A DNA stretch of 64,000 bases from Selaginella tamariscina (taxonomy: Eukaryota; Streptophyta; Lycopodiopsida; Selaginellales; Selaginellaceae). The notes under the pieces are model-generated. The model ran no database searches, was not told the DNA's origin, and was given only the letters and a program-made list of their open reading frames with translations. The position numbers and the translations under genes were made by a program. Positions within the stretch are counted from its first letter, which is position 1. The number at the start of each line of letters is the position of its first letter. This document shows, one piece after another, positions 27,915-64,000 of the stretch. The DNA is taken from positions 204,388 to 268,387 of the forward strand of contig PUQB01000036.1 in the NCBI GenBank assembly GCA_003024785.1. Reading direction: 5' to 3'.

Positions 27915-30041
27915 GATATATATGAGTATAATGTGGAAGATATATTAATTTGTAATAAACTTTTAAAATACTGACCTAAGAGTGTGTTTGCACAGTTTTT
28001 CATCTGCACCATGTTTGTCTCCAACTCTACCGCATTTTCTTTGTGAGAGAGACAAAGATCGATGAGCCCTATAAGAGAATATATACTACATTAGCTTAAT
28101 AAATATAAATTGATTAAGCTTAATAAATATAAATTGATTAAGTTATAAAATAAGCATATATACATACGCACACGTATGCATATATACTTGTTATATATAC
28201 GCATGTATTGCATACCTAGTATGGCAGCTAGTGGAGTTCTCAGGTCGTGACTCATGTTTGCAAAGAACAATTTCTTATGGTTACTACGTTTTTCTGCCAA
28301 CTTTGTAGCTTTCACCTGTACAAATATATATATGTATATACTGTATACACACACATATATACACATAATATACATAATTGCAGTATACACCCAAAGAAAT
28401 GCATTCATTTTAGTCTTACAGGTCATACATGCATGCATTATATACAGACCGTGTATAAAAATGGATATAATTGTAAGTCTGCATAGGACATAATTGAATT
28501 ATATATCTACTGTATAGATTGTGCATTTAGTCATATAAGGACACACACACGCGCGCACACACACAGATATACGTATAACTACCTGTGCAATGTAAGATTG
28601 TTCCACTCTCATTGAGAGACTGACTCCTTTTGTGAGCATTACCACTCTGTATTGTCATTTGGAAGCTCTTGACCGAGATGATCAATACCGCAACCTGGGG
28701 AAAATATACACTATACATCACTTATATATACGTAATATAAGCTCATACGTGTGTGCATGTATCTCTAAACACACACGCACGCACGCACGCACACACACAC
28801 AAGTCACCAAATCTTTACCAAAACCAGATATTCTAACCGTATTTACGTTGTATCTATCCCTATCCCTATCCACAAGCAAGTTATCTATGCTCTTCGAGTT
28901 CCTCTGTTCCAGGGATCTTGCGACATAAGCAATGGTGGAGATGTTAGATTCACTGGCCTTACTCAACTGACCAAGATCATTAACAGAGTAGTTTAACCCA
29001 TAAACACCTATTAACTTCCTGTCGGAACTCATTAAGAACATCTGTTGTCCGAATGCATTAACCTCGTTAAGCATGTTGTTAAACTTCCGACCAACAAAGA
29101 CTAAACCTGTCTTAACAGCCTTGAAACCAAACAGTAACAGTTCACCCGAGGTGTCCACAGCAATATCCCATGAGAGATCTCCAGAAGTAGAGTTCAAAAC
29201 ACTCCCATATACTGTATAATTCATCGTATATATCATACATGGTACTGGTGAAGGAGAGTTTATCAACCTTCCTGTGCTTGAATCTGCTTCTTGTGTGTAG
29301 AACGTATACGATTTCGGAGAGAGGCACGTGTACGGTGTGGATGCAGTCGGGATTCTTTGTGTATTTCTTGAGGTATTGAAATATGTTCTGCTTGAGTTCT
29401 TAGTGTACGCTGTGAGTGTTCCGTCTGTTGATAGAAAGCCTGCCCACGTTATTCCTGGTCTTAAGAAGAAGCCTGTCCATAGTATATTTCGAAGCTGCAA
29501 ACTACATGTGTTATATGTGTGTGTGTGTGTGTACATTGTATACGTGTGTGTGTATATGTATTATACCTGAGGAGATGTAGGTGTTGTGTCTGACGAAGAG
29601 AAAAGTTGAGCAAGCAAGGAAACAGAGGTACGAGTATAGTTCATGGAATACTCGAGCGGTTTTCGTACATGGTACGTGGCTTCCGTACGGAGAGATGAAA
29701 CCACACCGTCCTACGTATCTGTGCTGCTGCCACGTAGAATGTGCTCACTGATAACACGGTTATAACCAAAACACCATTACCTGTATTCACTTTTTAGTAA
29801 CTCTCTCTCTCTCTCTCAATATAATGTATATATACACACACATCAGGAAAGAGACAAACACATACTATAACAAATAGAAACAAAAGGAGTAATTATAATA
29901 TATAAATATAATATGTACCATCAGAGCGATTCTGGGGAAGAGCATGGGATCAGTATACCGAGACTTCATCCCCACAGACATTGCACTCGGGCAATCCCAT
30001 ATTCTGATTATGTTCCTGCTGTTCCTGCTGTTGGGATTCAT
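24208..30041 (-). CDS. CKI1-like hybrid histidine kinase
   Basis: A membrane two-component sensor kinase related to CYTOKININ INDEPENDENT 1, with at least ten exons on the minus strand. Start ATG at 30041 (alternative 29969); a first membrane segment [18 protein letters not shown] spans an exon join near 29770. A long extracytoplasmic region follows (29536-28800, with [17 protein letters not shown]). A second hydrophobic stretch lies near 28700. His[20 protein letters not shown] (about 28260-28210), with the phospho-acceptor His. Then [24 protein letters not shown] (27782-27640), the N box [20 protein letters not shown] (about 27450), G1 VEDTGLGIP and G2 [13 protein letters not shown] (27200-27065). 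A linker with KPVHGSRLV matches CKI1. The C-terminal receiver has [14 protein letters not shown], the phospho-acceptor in [16 protein letters not shown] and ALTAHAM (24830-24210). A one-base loss near 24298 shifts the end of the receiver; other frame changes occur near 29650. No CHASE domain is seen, which argues against a cytokinin receptor of the AHK2-4 type. Confidence 0.85.
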
Positions 30042-32900: not shown

Positions 32901-34562
32901 TTATGGTGCATGATAGAATTCAGCATGCATTCTCGGACTAGCTCGAACTTCAAGAGGCTGAGCTCTGAGATTCACTGTACTGTACACAGCATCCATATTA
33001 ACTTTGCCGCATTCCCACTCAAATCCCTGCAGCAGAACAGCCATGTTCATCTTCAGTGTGTTAAATGCAAATTTTGCACCGGGGCACACTCTTCTGCCAG
33101 TCCCAAATGGAAGCATATTGTAGTCAGCTCCAAACACATCGATCTTACTCTCCATAAACCTCTCAGGAACAAACTCGAAGGGTTTTTCCCATTGTTTTTC
33201 ATCCATACCAGCTGCATAAAAGTTTGGAAGAACTGCAGTTCCGGCGGGAATTGTGTACCCTCCGATCTCCACTTGCGTTTCGAATATTCTTGGAATCGGA
33301 AGCGGACCTGGAATATGTAGCCTCAGATTCTCTTTCACCACTGCGTCCAGGAACTTCAACTTGGGAGGTCCGCTTCTTCGATCCATCTTTCTGTACCAAC
33401 AACTCGTTGTATTTCCTCCTGGCATCTCTCTAGTATGTCCCTGTGTGAAACAAGCTCTGCTAGGTTCCATTCAAGCGCCGTCGCAGTGCTATCCACAGTT
33501 GCTATTATTAAGTCCTGTATATATCAATATATTATACTTCAACTATATCACTCTAGAGAGAGACTTACAAAGATCAATGCCAGTTTGGACAGACCAGGCA
33601 TCTCTACATCCTCCCTGGAAATTAATATGTCTACGAAGGTCGCAGGTTCACTGTTCTTGCTTTCAAATAGAATACGTTTCCGCTTCTCCAAAATCGAACC
33701 GAGGACTTTCTTCATCTGCGGCATGAACTCTCTGTACTTCTTCTCGACCCATTAAGATCAAGCCACCTTGTAGAATCAAGAGTTAATGTTATTATTATTA
33801 ATATTAGAGTGTTGTTACCTGAGTTGAGGGATGTACTCGCTGATATTTGGTGCCTTAATCAGATGCAAAGCCTGAGTGAATATACTCACAAACTCCGTGT
33901 TTACTCCTTGTGAAATGCTCGAACCAAAGAATCGTTCACCAAATAACATATACGTCACCACGTTCATGTTCATCGAGTGTAACAATGGTCTCACCTACAA
34001 AACATATCCATTATCATCCATCTCTCTCTCTCTCTCTCTCTCTCTGTGCAAGTGTATAAACCAACCTGGATAGAAACTCCCTGTCTTGTACGCTGGTAAA
34101 TGTTGTTAACAACAACCATGAGCTCCTGCTTTCGAACATCCTCATACGCCTTAAGCCTTGAAGCAGACAACATATGCATGTTTAAGAGTTTCCTTAGTAG
34201 AATCGAGGAAGGCGAGTGTCTTGCAAGGATCAAACCACTGTAGTTCATCCCACACACCTCCCCTGCGATAGTAGGCAACTTATCGGCCATCTCCACAGGG
34301 TATCTCGCATATGCTTCCTTGATTACTTCGGCGGAGTTTAATATTACGTATGGAACTGTTCCTAGCTTCATGTAGAAGATGGATCCGTACTTTCTCGAGA
34401 GTTCGTGAAGAGACACGTGTGGGAGAGGACCAACTCTATGCAGACTTCCTATTATCGGCCAGTTAAATGGACCTGGCGGAGATTTACCAATCTTTCTCTA
34501 TGAAATACATACCAAAGTATTGTTGTGAGGAGAATAATGAAGAGCATCACTAAGAACACCAT
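32901..34562 (-). CDS. Cytochrome P450, plant A-type (CYP71 clan)
   Basis: A microsomal haem-thiolate monooxygenase. Four exons on the minus strand: 34562-34066, 33994-33819, 33766-33569 and 33514-32901, each with GT/AG borders. The N-terminus is a membrane anchor, MVFLVMLFIILLTTILWYVF, followed by the Pro-rich hinge SPPGPFNWPIIG. The I helix reads DLIIATVDSTATALEW, with the usual AGTDT motif changed to ATVDS. The K helix KENLRLH has ExxR, the PERF block reads FVPERF, and the haem loop FGTGRRVCPG has the axial Cys. Length is close to 500 residues, normal for the family. One-base losses fall near 34490 (after the anchor), 33748 (start of exon 3) and 33365 (before the K helix). The subfamily and substrate cannot be told from sequence. 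Confidence 0.85.
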
Positions 34563-57610: not shown

Positions 57611-59493
57611 AATTATATGTAAACTGTATATGCAATGTGTATTTTTGTTTGGTTTTTATAGTGGGAAATATATATTAAATATTAATATTTATATATCAAG
57701 ACTAAGTTCTAGTTTATATATCAAGACTAAGTTCTAGACTTCTACAGTGTTCATTGACTATGTATACATTATAACCTAGTTATTATCTAGTAGATGTAAA
57801 ATAACATATCCTCGTCATTGATGTAGCATAACGATATCTTAGTTGACGTATTATACTCTGTAGTGGCATCGTACAAGACGTCAAACAGATTAATATTATT
57901 ATTAGTAATTAATGAAATTATTAATTATATTATAGTTTAGAAAGTGAGAAAACTTGTACTTTGCCGTAAGTACTTTCGGTACAAAATTAATATATAAAAT
58001 AAGCTAGTTTAATATTTTATATTTTATAATATGTTAGTTGAATGTATTTATATACAGAAAGTAAAAAGAAATATGCTTTTAAAATTTTATATTTGGATAA
58101 GATTTATACGCTGCAACACGACAAGAGAGACAACTTTGTAAAACTTCTAGTATTATTAAACCGTATAAATTAAGGACTTAAATACAATAGTATTTAATAT
58201 ATTAACAATATAAAATTGATTCTTTTGGTAACGCATGGTACTTGACTGAATATATATAAATAATTTTTATCAATATTTTACTTTACTAATTCACTGTATA
58301 CATGTCAAGTAGGACCTTGCTTTTCGGAAGAGAATGGTATATATATAATGTACACGTAAGAATAGCGTATAATAGAATGGGTCATAACACATTTTCTTAA
58401 CAATGTTTATAACATAATTTACGTTTAACATGTTAAAAACCCATAAAATACTATTTATTAAAATAATATTTAGAATCTTTAATGAAATACATAAGAATTG
58501 TTAATTATATTGTTTAATATTATTAACTCTTATAAGAATCTTATTTAATATTATTATTAAATACTTTTCTTACCTAGGACTCTGTTTTAATTAAGAATTT
58601 AATAATATTCGTTACAAACAAATATATGTAAAATTAAATTTATACATTAAAATAAAAACTGTATGCTAAGTATATTACATGGATATGCAAAAACACTTCT
58701 AATGTTTTCACATATACCAAATGTATTAACCACATTTCGATTATAATTTAAAATTAAAAGTTTATACAACATATTAACAACAGTTGATTTAATAAAATTA
58801 GTACAAATAGGATCCATTATAAAGATACTTAATTTTATGAACTTATTATTAACAATGAAATTCTTTATATAATATAATACTAATAATATAAAGATGATAT
58901 AGAAAACCTATATATAATTTTAAAAACTTAGCTTCTACATATAAGTTTTTACATAAACTTGTTTTTAAGAACACTTGCAACCACGTTATCTATACCTATA
59001 ACCACCATTTCTAAGTTCTCTATAACATACACACACACACACACACTCAAACGACGTGCGTGTTCCCCTTTGTTACCTTCTTCAGCCAGGAAAAAGAAAC
59101 TTATATATTTGATTTTATTACTGGTCACTGGATAAGCTTACCATCATTGTACTGTTGATCTCTTTAACACCTCGTACACCTAGCAGTTTGATACACAGTC
59201 AGTATTTCTTGTAATAACACACACACGCGCGCGCGCGCACACACACACACGGGGGAGAGAGAGAGAGACACGTTTACTCCCATCCCACTTCACGGAGAGT
59301 TTAGATAATGAAGATGTGCTAACAGGAGTGAATTTCTCAATGGAATCGCTTCATGACGTCCTTCCAGATAATGGTTAAATCCCAACATGATCAAGGATTT
59401 TGATATTGCAACACAAACCAAGTTATCATCATATAAAGACCATGAGTGTGTGCATATACGTACACTGCTCTCCATCCTCAAGAGGTTAAACCT
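57611..59493. other. Spacer between CRP3 and PPR copy B
   Basis: AT-rich and closely similar to 47.28-49.44 kb, without a supported gene. A (CA)n(GC)n(CA)n(GA)n tract lies at 59218-59268. Confidence 0.65.
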
Positions 59494-60236
59494 CTACCAA
59501 AAATCGTTACACGAACACTTACCATCCTTAAAAACATGAAACCGTGCATCTCTACAAACAATCTCTCTCTTCTCGATCCCCGATATAACTGCAGTAGCAA
59601 CATGACAGTCGTCACACACTCTCTCAAGTTCTTCACAATCCTCACTCTAGTCCCAGCCTGCGTATTTATAAGTGCACAACCTATAGCCAACCTCTCACTA
59701 TGCCCACACACCATCCGACACAACGTACCCGTGTTGTTCACGTCTACCAACAGACTCTGCAGCTTTGCATTTATCTCCACTATCTGAGGATGCACAGAGT
59801 CCCTCGCGACGAACCTGTGTACAAACCCTCCGTCGTCACTCCACCAGCTCTGACCCGTCTGTTTCCACGCACGACTCGCCTTTCTCATCCTCAGAACCTT
59901 TGCTCGATCCTCCCACATTCCCACACTCCCATACAGATTCGCCATCAGTACATACTACATAGTTCTCGTCGAATCTCAGCAAGTTCTCGAATGCAACCCT
60001 CCCTATCTCTACATTCCTCCACTTCCTGCAGGAGCTCAGTGAGGTAGTCCACGCTATAGCATCGGCCTCAAAGGCATGCTTTGTAAGGTCTTCAATGCCA
60101 TCTCGACCTTATTCGATTCGACCGTCCAAACAGGTCTACCATACAGACATAGTGTTGGAGGTCCGGTTCGACCCCGTACTCCCTCATCGCACCAAACAAG
60201 CTCTCCCCTCTAGTCCTGCATGACTGCACGCAGTAA
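59494..60236 (-). pseudogene. PPR-DYW protein, copy B (severely 5'-truncated)
   Basis: This is the duplicate of the last third of PPR copy A. It keeps MANLYGSVGMWEDRAKVLRM of the E region, the linker [40 protein letters not shown] and VRIVKNLR; then a two-base insertion relative to copy A (near 59618) shifts the frame, after which [20 protein letters not shown] and [11 protein letters not shown] end at a stop at 59494. The deaminase-like His, Glu and paired Cys are present. The gene is cut at about 60236, in the middle of the sequence GCACGCAGTAAT, and is followed upstream by unrelated DNA, so no complete PPR tract remains. Confidence 0.8.
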
Positions 60237-60434
60237 TGAGTGTCGCCATTTTGGAGGCTTGGGGCCCAGGAGGCCTGGGCTCGAATATTCAAGAATATTC
60301 TAGAATATTTTGGAATATCTTTTTTGGTTCGGCAGTATTGGCCTCAGTCGGCAAAAAAGAATTCTATTAAAACTGTTGTATTTCTATCTTATTTTTTTTT
60401 ATATTAGCTTAATTTATTACTCAATATACATTAG

Positions 60435-63400
60435 CTAAAGTTTCTTCTTCATCTTAAGTAAAGTTGCAATTCTCGAACCACCAGTTACGCTTGGACGTGG
60501 AGGTGTTTGAGTAGGTAACTCTTCTGGTCTAATGTTCTCTACAAGCTTGTTTGTTGCCAACCTAGAGAGTTCGAAACTCTTCTCGGTTCCTATAATATTC
60601 CTTCCGAGCTCGACAGCAGCTAACAACGATGACCCGGTTCCGGAACCAATATCCCAGACTAGGTCGCCAGGTCTACTGAGACGCTCGATCAAAAGCTGCA
60701 TGAGTCGAACACTCTTCGGTTGAATCATAATCCTGCACAAACTTCCATTAGGATAATAGCAAAGCAAGTACTTCCTTACCAAGCCTCCTGATAACGGTCG
60801 GCAGTGTCGACGAGGATCGTGTTCGTCAACGCCAGAGGGTTTGGCCTCTTCGACTTCTTCTCAGAGCTTTGCAGCACCAAGAGAACTAACAAGTTATCCT
60901 GCCACATAGACCAAGTTAAACTTGAACTTGAATAGCTAGCTTACCTTAATTTTGTCACGGTATCCCCAGCCTCGTGCACGGTAGACGCTGTAAGTCCCTG
61001 CAACCTCCAAGTTGATTACTGCAGCCGCCTGAATCACCGCCGAAACAGAAGGAGAACTCGCGAAGACGACCATGAAACCACTCGCTGCCAAGTGCATTCC
61101 ACTGAACTGCAAGGCCTCCTCAAACTTCACCGGATCTAGCTGCACAATGTCCTTGTTGATGCTAGCACCTCCATATACAAGCTCATTGGGCAAGTCGAGG
61201 ATGATGAGGTTGAAGCCGTATTCACCTACCACTTCCTGGAACAACGTTTGTGACTCAACCGTATGTAGTCTGTCAACCTGTTGTCGGAGCTTGGTGTACA
61301 CCTCTGTCTGGGAAGCACCTGGCTCGAAGAAAGACCTGCTCATCTCCTCCATGTCGCACACAGCTAGGTCGTAGGATCCACGGGATGCAGCCAGGGTCGG
61401 GATGAAGGTCATCAGGTCGTCCTTGATGTCCAAACTAGCTACAAGTGGCTGTACCTCATTGATTGTAAAGTCGAATGCCGGCGGAGGTGCTGTAGAAGAG
61501 CTTGGTCCCGCTCCCGATCCCTTTGCAGGTGTAGTTGTCTTCCGCACCGTCTTCTTCATCTTGCTCTTCTTGATAGCCTCTACTTCTTCTGGCTCCCAAA
61601 CAATCGCTGGTAGATCATTGGCGTGCATGTCGAATAGTGTGCTCTCCCAAGCTGGTGGCTGTTGCGACGGACAGTCGAGCCAGAATGGAACATGCTCCCG
61701 TTCGAACGGTGTTAGAGCTCCTCTGCTCTTCGACCACATGTGAGGCTCGCTTGTATGATCTGTCCACAGCTTCATCGTATGGGACGGTGTCATTTGCTTC
61801 GCCAGTATGAAGCAACACAAAGTCAGACAGTAGCAATGCTGGATTGAAAGCTTACCTCCATATCATCCGACGCGCAGATTCCTCACGCTCCAGAAACTCA
61901 TTCGGCTCCATCGAATAAGTGAACCGTATGCAGTCATGGAAGGGCTGAAAGACCAGGCACTTGCTCCGAATTCTCATCTCGTCAAACCAGCTCATGAAGT
62001 CGACATCCGTTCCAACTTCTTCACCATCCTCTCGCAACCCCTTAAGGATCTGAATGGCTTCCTCGCGCACAGCCTTCCAATATAAGTCCAAGGTGAACCA
62101 CTTGATCCACTCTTTGTCCTGCATGCCCGGTAGCCCAAGTGTCTGTTGTTCTGCCTTGGATTCGAGACGGGTGAGCTTGTTCAGGTATCGGAGTCGCAGC
62201 ATGTTTGGAATCTTCGCCCTTGACATCGCATACAGCTTCTCAATGCCCATCCAGCGACACTGCTTATGAGAGATGTTTGTCACCTTCTGGAACCACTCCT
62301 CCCCCAAGTCTGGGTCTATGATGGAGAGGAACTTGTGCATACGCTTGTCATGCTTCTTGTACACTAGCTGCTTCAGGTTCACCTCAACCTGTGAATTGCC
62401 CTTAGCACTGGTGACTGCTCTGTCGAGATCATCGTCGATCTCGTTCTGCACATAGAATAAGTTAAAAATTTCTTTCCTATAAATTAAATCGGAGGTTACC
62501 TTGAAAAGTATCTTTGCGCAGATCAGGTTCGGAAGAGGATGCCAAGCCGTCTTTCCTGATGAACTCTCCTTCCACTTCCGCACCTCAAGACGATCAACCT
62601 CCGTGAGTGACTCGAGGATTTTCTGAGTTCCTTCTGTACTAGTGCAGACCGCCTTTACAGCGAGGAGAATATGTGGTAGCGTTGTTTCCACAGATGTTGC
62701 TGAAGATCTGTTCAACGAAACTGTAAGTCTAAACTCTTAACAAAAAGAAAAGAAAATACTCACATGTTAATCGATTGGAACATCGAAACCAGTTGAAGAA
62801 TGTCGAGGTTCTCCGTGGAGATGAAACTCGATCGAACGCGAATAGCCCATCGCTGGTTGTCCTCTGCATCCTCTCGGTACAGCTTCTGCAAAGCCTGTAG
62901 CCTATGGTTCCCGTCCCAGCAGCTAAACTTCCTGTTTGAGAGCCTTGAAGCCCACTGTTTGTACTCCGGCTGAGTAAGAGCTTGCTCGAAAGACCGGTGC
63001 TGCTCGTACTGAATCGTGTCCTTCGACAGCTCCGATAGCTCCTCAGCAGTGAGTCGATCTCCGATGGACAGAATGAACAAGGCCGTGTTGCGTAGATAAC
63101 CAGCCTTCTTCAACGATGACACCAGCCTGTCCAAGTCCCCTGGGTTCACTCGTCGAACCACCTCGTTGGAATGTATTCTGCAGATGGGCACATCAGGAGG
63201 ATCACCAAGTCCCTTGATAGTAATTTTGTCGAGCAGGTTTGCTGAGCTCTCCAAATGCAGGCTCGCCGGTATGCTGTATAACTCCTTCGGCTCCTTATCG
63301 CTCTTCGCCTTCTTGCCTTTTGAATCAGCTTTCCCGCGGCCTCTCTTTTTGCTGACTGCCTCCTCCAAGTCGTCCTCGCTAGCTTCAGCTGCCTCTGTCA

Positions 63401-63659
63401 TCTGCACTTGCTCGTTCAGGACTGCAACCTCAGCGGATGAAGGAGGCAACTGCGACGAGCTCTCCGGGAAATCTGTGATTGTTGGTGGAGGCTGTTCTTG
63501 CTCAACTGCTACTACTCCAGACTGAGTCACTGGAGGATCCTCCTTTGCTACATTAGATGGTTCTCCTCTCTTGCCTCGCTTCTGCTTCGATATCCTCTTC
63601 TCTTCCCGTGGCTCTTCATCAGGCGCAGTCTCTAGTAGACGTTTTGAAGCTCTCACCAT
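60435..63659 (-). CDS. ParB-like domain / amino-methyltransferase-like fusion
   Basis: One apparently intact gene of about 950-1000 residues in five or six exons (63659-62764, about 62709-61855 with an optional 54-base intron at 62504-62451, about 61749-60950, about 60896-60780, 60733-60435), with GT/AG introns of about 46-110 bases. The N-terminus is Lys/Arg-rich with KKRGRGKADSKGKK, a likely nuclear signal or AT-hook-like stretch. A ParB-like domain follows, with VPICRIHSNEVV, a helix LDRLVSSLKKAGYL and the signature CWDGNHRLQAL (ParB box: GNHR for GERR). A middle helical region has no family I know. The C-terminus resembles beta-type N4/N6 amino-methyltransferases in circular order: motif IV-like NLIILDLPN (DLPN instead of DPPY), then IMIQPKSVRLMQLLIERLSR, PGDLVWDIGSGTGSSLLAA (motif I) and GRNIIGTEKS. 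The altered motif IV may mean lost or changed activity. No frameshift was found. Confidence 0.7.
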
Positions 63660-63735
63660 TTTGTAAACTCTGGAAAGTAAACACACAAGTCAATTGATGA
63701 GGAGACAAAATAAAAAAACAAACAAAGATGACTAA

Positions 63736-64000
63736 CCTTGTGGCTGCCGACTCAAGCTAGATGCCGACCCTCTCAGTCGGCAGAGAGATGTAGAAGAAAA
63801 AACCTGCCGACTGAGATAGTTTGTGCCGACTCTGTCAGACGGCACTGAAGAGATAATGGTGCCGACTGAGATAGGATGGTGCCGTCCCTCTCAGACGGCA
63901 CAAATGGGAAGACCCATTAACTGTTTTAAAAGAAATACTTGAGACGCAAAGAAAAAAAAAACTAATTCAAAATACCTTGTGGCTGCCGACTGAAGAAGGA
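63736..64000. repeat. Array of GCCGACTGAG / CTCAGTCGGC motifs
   Basis: CCTTGTGGCTGCCGACTSAAG occurs at about 63737 and again at about 63975, making a direct repeat of about 238 bp. Between them are short inverted pairs: GCCGAC..CTCAGTCGGC (63763-63785), TGCCGACTGAGATA with TGTCAGACGGCA (63807-63846) and TGCCGACTGAGATA with CTCTCAGACGGCAC (63862-63902). They lie directly upstream of the ParB-methyltransferase ATG and could be subterminal repeats, promoter elements or self-binding sites. Confidence 0.7.

Follow-up and report, generated by a model that had tools for sequence, protein, structure and literature searches.

A many-copy transposon of Selaginella tamariscina carries a spliced gene that joins a methyltransferase domain to a probable ParB-like domain

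The gene described here is part of a recently amplified, many-copy plant DNA transposon and is not a gene of a single plant locus. It lies in a stretch of 64,000 nucleotides of Selaginella tamariscina DNA (assembly GCA_003024785.1, contig PUQB01000036.1, positions 204,388 to 268,387 of the forward strand), which we call the window. The window contains pieces of PPR/DYW, P450 and HisKA genes, which bear out the plant host assumed in a first-pass annotation made from the sequence alone. We refer to the gene as the passenger gene, since it sits inside the transposon back-to-back with a three-exon transposase gene on the opposite strand. Transposons are usually the targets of methylation; this one has multiplied with a gene of methyltransferase fold, a probable DNA-binding domain and an array of repeats that might serve as its address.

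Copies, ends and age of the transposon

When the genome (300.7 Mb, 1391 contigs) was searched at the DNA level with the passenger gene, 41 match rows were obtained at 40 places with 94-100% identity, the 40 places being those scored from 894 candidates. A 33-bp tag from the methyltransferase region was found at 470 places in the genome (371 exact, 99 with 1-3 mismatches; control, 0). The first-pass annotation had proposed a plant gene of its own. The tag count, and the position of the gene inside a transposon with ends and a transposase gene, speak against that proposal, and the 40 near-identical places together with the tag places rule out a single host gene.

Element boundaries were drawn by comparing ten copies, the window copy and nine others, with about 17-19 kb of context. 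All have a common stretch of about 8.3 kb (8174-8340 bases in seven measured copies) with shared ends, and the ends form an imperfect inverted repeat (Table 1). The window copy is longer because it contains a 3.25-kb insert at window-equivalent 66714-69966; its left end falls outside the window at about C682:275863, equivalent to window position 71476. By eye the insert itself (C682:271101-274353) resembles a CACTA-type element, with ends CACCGG...CCGGTG and a probable 3-bp duplication, AGA. Among the nine copies with both ends available, exact 9-bp target duplications flanked four (C483, C569, C520 and C726), eight of nine bases agreed at C336, and the duplications were imperfect at C504 and C1170; none was present at C512 or at the window copy.

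Table 1. Features of the transposon within the window (window coordinates)
Feature	Position	Strand	Remarks
Transposon, part in window	60238..64000	-	extent common to nine other copies with the same right end
Right element end	60238..60259	.	GAGTGTCGCCATTTTGGAGGCT; imperfect inverted repeat of left end GGGTCTCGGCGAAAAGGAGGCT, 14/22 alike by eye
Subterminal TGCCGAC-type motifs	60327..60353	.	about 100-120 bp from right end; outer motif altered in window copy
Exon 6	60435..60732	-	carries motifs X and I (GDLVWDIGSGTGSS) and the stop codon
Intron 5	60733..60779	-	GTAAGG...GTGCAG; overlooked in first-pass annotation
Exon 5	60780..60898	-	
Intron 4	60899..60944	-	GTAAGC...GGCAG; acceptor assigned from reading frame and consensus; in-phase alternatives present
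Exon 4	60945..61811	-	contains methyltransferase motif IV as DLPN
Intron 3	61812..61855	-	acceptor TTGCAG|G in 19/19 other aligned copies; deleted in window copy
Exon 3	61856..62445	-	
Intron 2	62446..62499	-	GTAACC...GCAG
Exon 2	62500..62707	-	
Intron 1	62708..62763	-	GTGAGT...ACAG
Exon 1	62764..63659	-	charged N-terminus and ParB-like domain (VPICRIHSN, SSLKKAG, CWDGNHRLQAL)
Start of inverted TGCCGAC/GTCGGCA repeat array	63741..64000	.	between passenger and transposase genes; extends past window

In the 20 best-scoring copies, which were aligned, the mean pairwise substitution was 0.19% and the maximum 0.59%. This low divergence indicates a recent burst, but because the copies were the best-scoring ones the mean does not describe the whole family, and at other places the identity of the C-terminal region fell to 77%. 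The variants among the 20 copies comprised 15 nonsynonymous and 11 synonymous changes, and variable columns numbered 26 of 2934 in exons, 3 of 292 in introns and 22 of 277 in the flanks. No purifying selection was visible in these 20 young copies, in which introns were as invariant as exons.

At the right edge of the element, window positions 59478-60237 on the minus strand match DYW_deaminase (E 7e-9) and hold the frameshifted 3' part of a PPR-DYW gene, which begins at the transposon edge (ITACSHAGL). That the window copy had split this neighbouring gene was considered and rejected: no 5' piece was found in 1.9 kb translated past the other end, and there was no target duplication. Elsewhere in the window, also on the minus strand, were cytochrome P450 pieces at 32901-34497 (PF00067), perhaps one spliced gene, and histidine-kinase pieces at 28091-29560 (HisKA, E 2e-7).

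The passenger gene and its protein

The spliced passenger gene runs from 63659 to 60435 on the minus strand and has six exons that encode a protein of 992 amino acids. A multi-exon gene on this strand was present as the first-pass annotation had claimed, and the charged N-terminus, the CWDGNHRLQAL stretch, motifs X and I and the DLPN sequence were all found in it. Two other claims did not hold. The last exon had been misread in its 3' part, as the alignment of 20 copies revealed a fifth intron (60779-60733), whose removal takes out the DPRRHCRPLSGG stretch. Compared with the 19 other aligned copies, the window copy has one 4-base and one 3-base length change; both fall within intron 5; taken together they would displace the frame as originally read but leave a spliced frame unharmed. 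The frame of over 900 codons, described as unbroken, is broken in the window copy, where three bases of the intron-3 acceptor present in the other 19 copies are gone and splicing would therefore be abnormal. Spliced as in Table 1, the frame was open to the end in 10 of the 20 aligned copies (992 amino acids in nine, 995 in one). The remaining ten, the window copy among them, were not open, and some of the single-base breaks are possibly assembly errors.

On the strength of its profile match, the C-terminus of the protein is a beta-class amino-methyltransferase domain. PF01555 matched residues 898-953 with an E-value of 1.1e-8 and 35.8 bits, above its cut-off of 26.7 bits, in agreement with the domain type first assigned, phrog_67 matched with an E-value of 3.8e-11, and the best solved relative was MboIIA (E 0.0002). 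The motif order is IV, X, I, with motifs X and I intact. In an alignment with five phage ParB-methyltransferases, DLPN sits on the DPPY column, so that the reading of motif IV as changed was upheld as well. The change is not a peculiarity of one copy. When motif IV was left open in the search pattern 371 places were found, and when it was fixed to the DLPN codons there were again 371; in this count, which covers exact contexts and leaves the 99 mismatched tag places outside, DLPN rather than the consensus (D/N/S)PP(Y/F/W) occupied motif IV in 371 of 371. It was also present at C324, C291 and C448, where the identity of the C-terminal region to the query was no more than 88-92%. Catalytic forms of motif IV include DPPY, SPPY, NPPY and DPPW, according to the available portion of PMC8885841, and DLPN is without their aromatic residue. 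The same source describes, in its available text, that replacement of SPPY by APPA abolishes the 4mC activity of a rotifer enzyme. Taking the rotifer result together with the invariance of DLPN, we hold ordinary amino-methyltransferase catalysis by the DLPN protein to be unlikely.

The N-terminal half probably carries a divergent ParB-like domain, a label we treat as provisional. ParB was not matched in the protein by Pfam, PHROGs or NCBIfam, a search of the genome with PF02195 gave 0 matches, and a PDB search with the ParB region returned three matches (best E 0.83), none of them relevant. A custom profile built from Spo0J and 14 phage-record sequences (n = 15) gave two colinear local matches about 40 residues apart, one to the helix SSLKKAG and one to the DGNHRLQAL motif. 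Shuffled sequences did as well in 1 of 100 and 0 of 100 cases, respectively, and the hhalign probabilities were low (12% and 11%). With the whole region as one query the score was 22.3 compared to a shuffle maximum of 19.1 (n = 100), at an hhalign probability of only 4.8%. The proposed fusion of ParB with a methyltransferase stands in its methyltransferase half (PF01555); its ParB half drew no match from the three profile collections and is represented by the weak colinear matches to the custom profile.

Other PF01555 sequences were found in the genome, where 150 of 739 candidates were scored. Most of the scored rows (137 of 150) covered profile positions 165-220, largely in open frames of 106 amino acids (for example, C330:6890-7057 and C639:46414-46581). 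This second group sits away from the DLPN places listed for comparison and may represent a further family of transposons with an amino-methyltransferase, or else a branch of the DLPN family that has diverged. The best place among the 150 scored, C1293:521691-521984 (41.6 bits, profile 119-220), is longer than the transposon matches and could be a separate gene.

The transposase gene and the TGCCGAC array

The transposase, and with it the element, looks MULE-like. Inspection by eye revealed an N-terminal cysteine/histidine cluster ending in GVHQHP and a CLFHF pair, with acidic residues set in LDHTHR, MSDEAG and TTNNAE. A SWIM-like finger is suggested at the C-terminus (PF04434, E 0.011; 15.7 bits, under the cut-off of 19.6). 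For exons 2 and 3, the MULE transposase domain PF10551 gave no match up to E 10, and no match was returned from PDB. Genome-wide there were 77 PF10551 places, 0 of which fell at the 100 transposase places listed. Of these canonical MULE transposases (e.g. C102:183580-183867), 16 share a 95-bit score and have frames of 433-673 amino acids; they are a separate young MULE family.

The frame was not open across the whole transposase gene in any of ten spliced copies: eight gave a frame, the longest of 564 amino acids, and in two the junction tag was not found. In the window copy the gene is frameshifted and is interrupted by the 3.25-kb insert. A 30-bp transposase tag was found at 445 places at up to 3 mismatches (control, 0). 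At least 66 of 100 listed methyltransferase places had a transposase place on the opposite strand 3-12 kb away, mostly near 5.5 kb. This is a lower bound, because the pairing was restricted to listed exact places, namely the 100 methyltransferase places and 89 of 100 transposase places (up to contig C503).

The two genes are separated by an array of inverted TGCCGAC/GTCGGCA repeats in tandem. The motif TGCCG[AT]C occurred 27-30 times per element in seven copies, compared to 5 times in the 60,238 window bases outside the element. The C483 element holds 22 copies of TGCCGAC itself, whereas 200 dinucleotide shuffles averaged 0.69 copies and reached 4 at most; the 60.2 kb of window outside the element has one copy. 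The motifs cluster in the intergenic array and not at the element ends; six of the seven elements counted have motif pairs at about 100-120 bp from either end (C569 has a single motif on the left). Inverted-repeat arrays are a type of site that a ParB-like protein might bind, and we regard the array as a candidate binding site of the passenger protein; the repeats may equally serve the transposase. Precedent for such an arrangement comes from VANDAL elements, whose VANC proteins bind short motifs that lie in the element's own tandem repeats (PMC10398659, in the part available).

Possible functions and known relatives

How the passenger protein works can be proposed from its sequence and its setting. 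The explanation we favor, to which we give about even odds, is that the second gene of this MULE-like transposon encodes a sequence-specific self-recognition factor. Its probable ParB-like domain would bind the inverted TGCCGAC repeats found between the genes and at the element ends, while the part with the methyltransferase fold would bind AdoMet or DNA and by itself carry out little or no ordinary amino-methylation. Such a factor might regulate or un-silence the element, or aid its transposition, in a manner that would resemble the action of VANC on VANDAL elements.

The strongest competitor, though we think it well short of even, is that the protein, in spite of its unusual motif IV, works as an active amino-methyltransferase and puts 6mA or 4mC marks on its own transposon. 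Intact motifs X and I and the retention of a single motif IV variant at all exact places are what such an enzyme would lead one to expect, and self-marking is the role that the authors of the Ectocarpus work propose for their relative (PMC12477816, in the available text). The missing aromatic residue and the inactive APPA form of the rotifer enzyme (both PMC8885841, in part) count against it. Somewhat less probable still is that the protein assists transposition as a cofactor, pairing the ends through the subterminal TGCCGAC motifs that it binds, and plays no part in silencing. The motif pairs near both ends suit this reading, but the bulk of the motifs lies in the array. Slightly behind it we place a functionless captured passenger that is copied together with the element. 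The ten aligned copies whose frame is not open, and the lack of visible purifying selection, would agree with this; on the other side are the complete six-exon frame in the other ten copies, the 470 tag places, and the recurrence of the same architecture in the Sola1 transposon of a brown alga (PMC12477816, as far as available).

METTL3 and METTL14 are a pair of a catalytic and a non-catalytic methyltransferase. By comparison with them, the DLPN protein might be a pseudo-methyltransferase with a DNA-targeting role, which would recruit or partner an active enzyme from the second abundant PF01555 group, giving a two-part amino-methylation system borne by transposons; we consider this a long shot. 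Least credible of all is the original idea of a host plant DNA-methylation gene, which has in its favor a spliced gene with a methyltransferase domain but, for the window copy, is contradicted by a high-copy, near-identical sequence within an element that has defined termini, duplicated target sites and a gene for a transposase; a separate single-copy host homologue could exist besides the transposon copies.

Returning to the self-recognition factor, its nearest likeness in action is VANC of the Arabidopsis VANDAL MULEs, likewise a second MULE gene on an element with its own tandem noncoding repeats and a short motif (PMC10398659, in part). The likeness is one of working, and we claim no shared domain. 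If the passenger protein does bind its own repeats, plants would have, beside VANC, another kind of transposon factor that recognises its own element.

In architecture, a ParB-methyltransferase passenger has been published for a transposon of the brown alga Ectocarpus, Sola1-1_Ec32, and similar green and red algal cases (a 2011 work; Petroll et al. 2025) are cited there (PMC12477816, in the available text). The kind is therefore already known. The Ectocarpus element belongs to a brown alga, has a Sola1 transposase and is 21.5 kb long, whereas the present one is from a plant, is MULE-like and measures 8.3 kb; the likeness to it, and to the green and red algal relatives that the same text states to be similar, is by description only. 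New in the present case are the MULE-like carrier in a plant, the change in motif IV and the TGCCGAC array. A plant MULE-like carrier with fixed DLPN and a repeat array was not found in print among the titles, abstract openings and passages covered, which included few subscription papers, and the available main text of a MULE survey (PMC6446971) has no mention of a methyltransferase or ParB. Fixed DLPN makes catalysis, as opposed to mere binding of AdoMet or DNA, directly testable.

The first-pass annotation had set the gene beside the N4-cytosine enzymes of rotifers and Marchantia. The bdelloid rotifer N4CMT is likewise a beta-class amino-methyltransferase in a eukaryote, but it is a host gene that silences transposons and has an intact SPPY and a chromodomain (PMC8885841, in part), whereas the gene here carries DLPN and is a high-copy transposon passenger, with ends, duplications and a transposase, so the comparison is not supported. 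In plant genomes, transposons can be the source of amino-methyltransferase genes and of 6mA/4mC signals, and the present gene is a warning of this.

Phage ParB-methyltransferase fusions (L046-L049 and L051) have the same order, a ParB-like region followed by motifs IV, X and I. They differ in their length of about 390-430 amino acids and their intact DPPY, and are without the middle region of several hundred residues of the passenger protein, to which they have no detectable full-length similarity. Recent transfer from a phage was rejected. None of six peptide patterns matched in viral_contigs, and among the 664 phage records that matched, the 20 listed covered at most 16% of the query, at its C-terminal end, with a best E-value among them of 1e-3.
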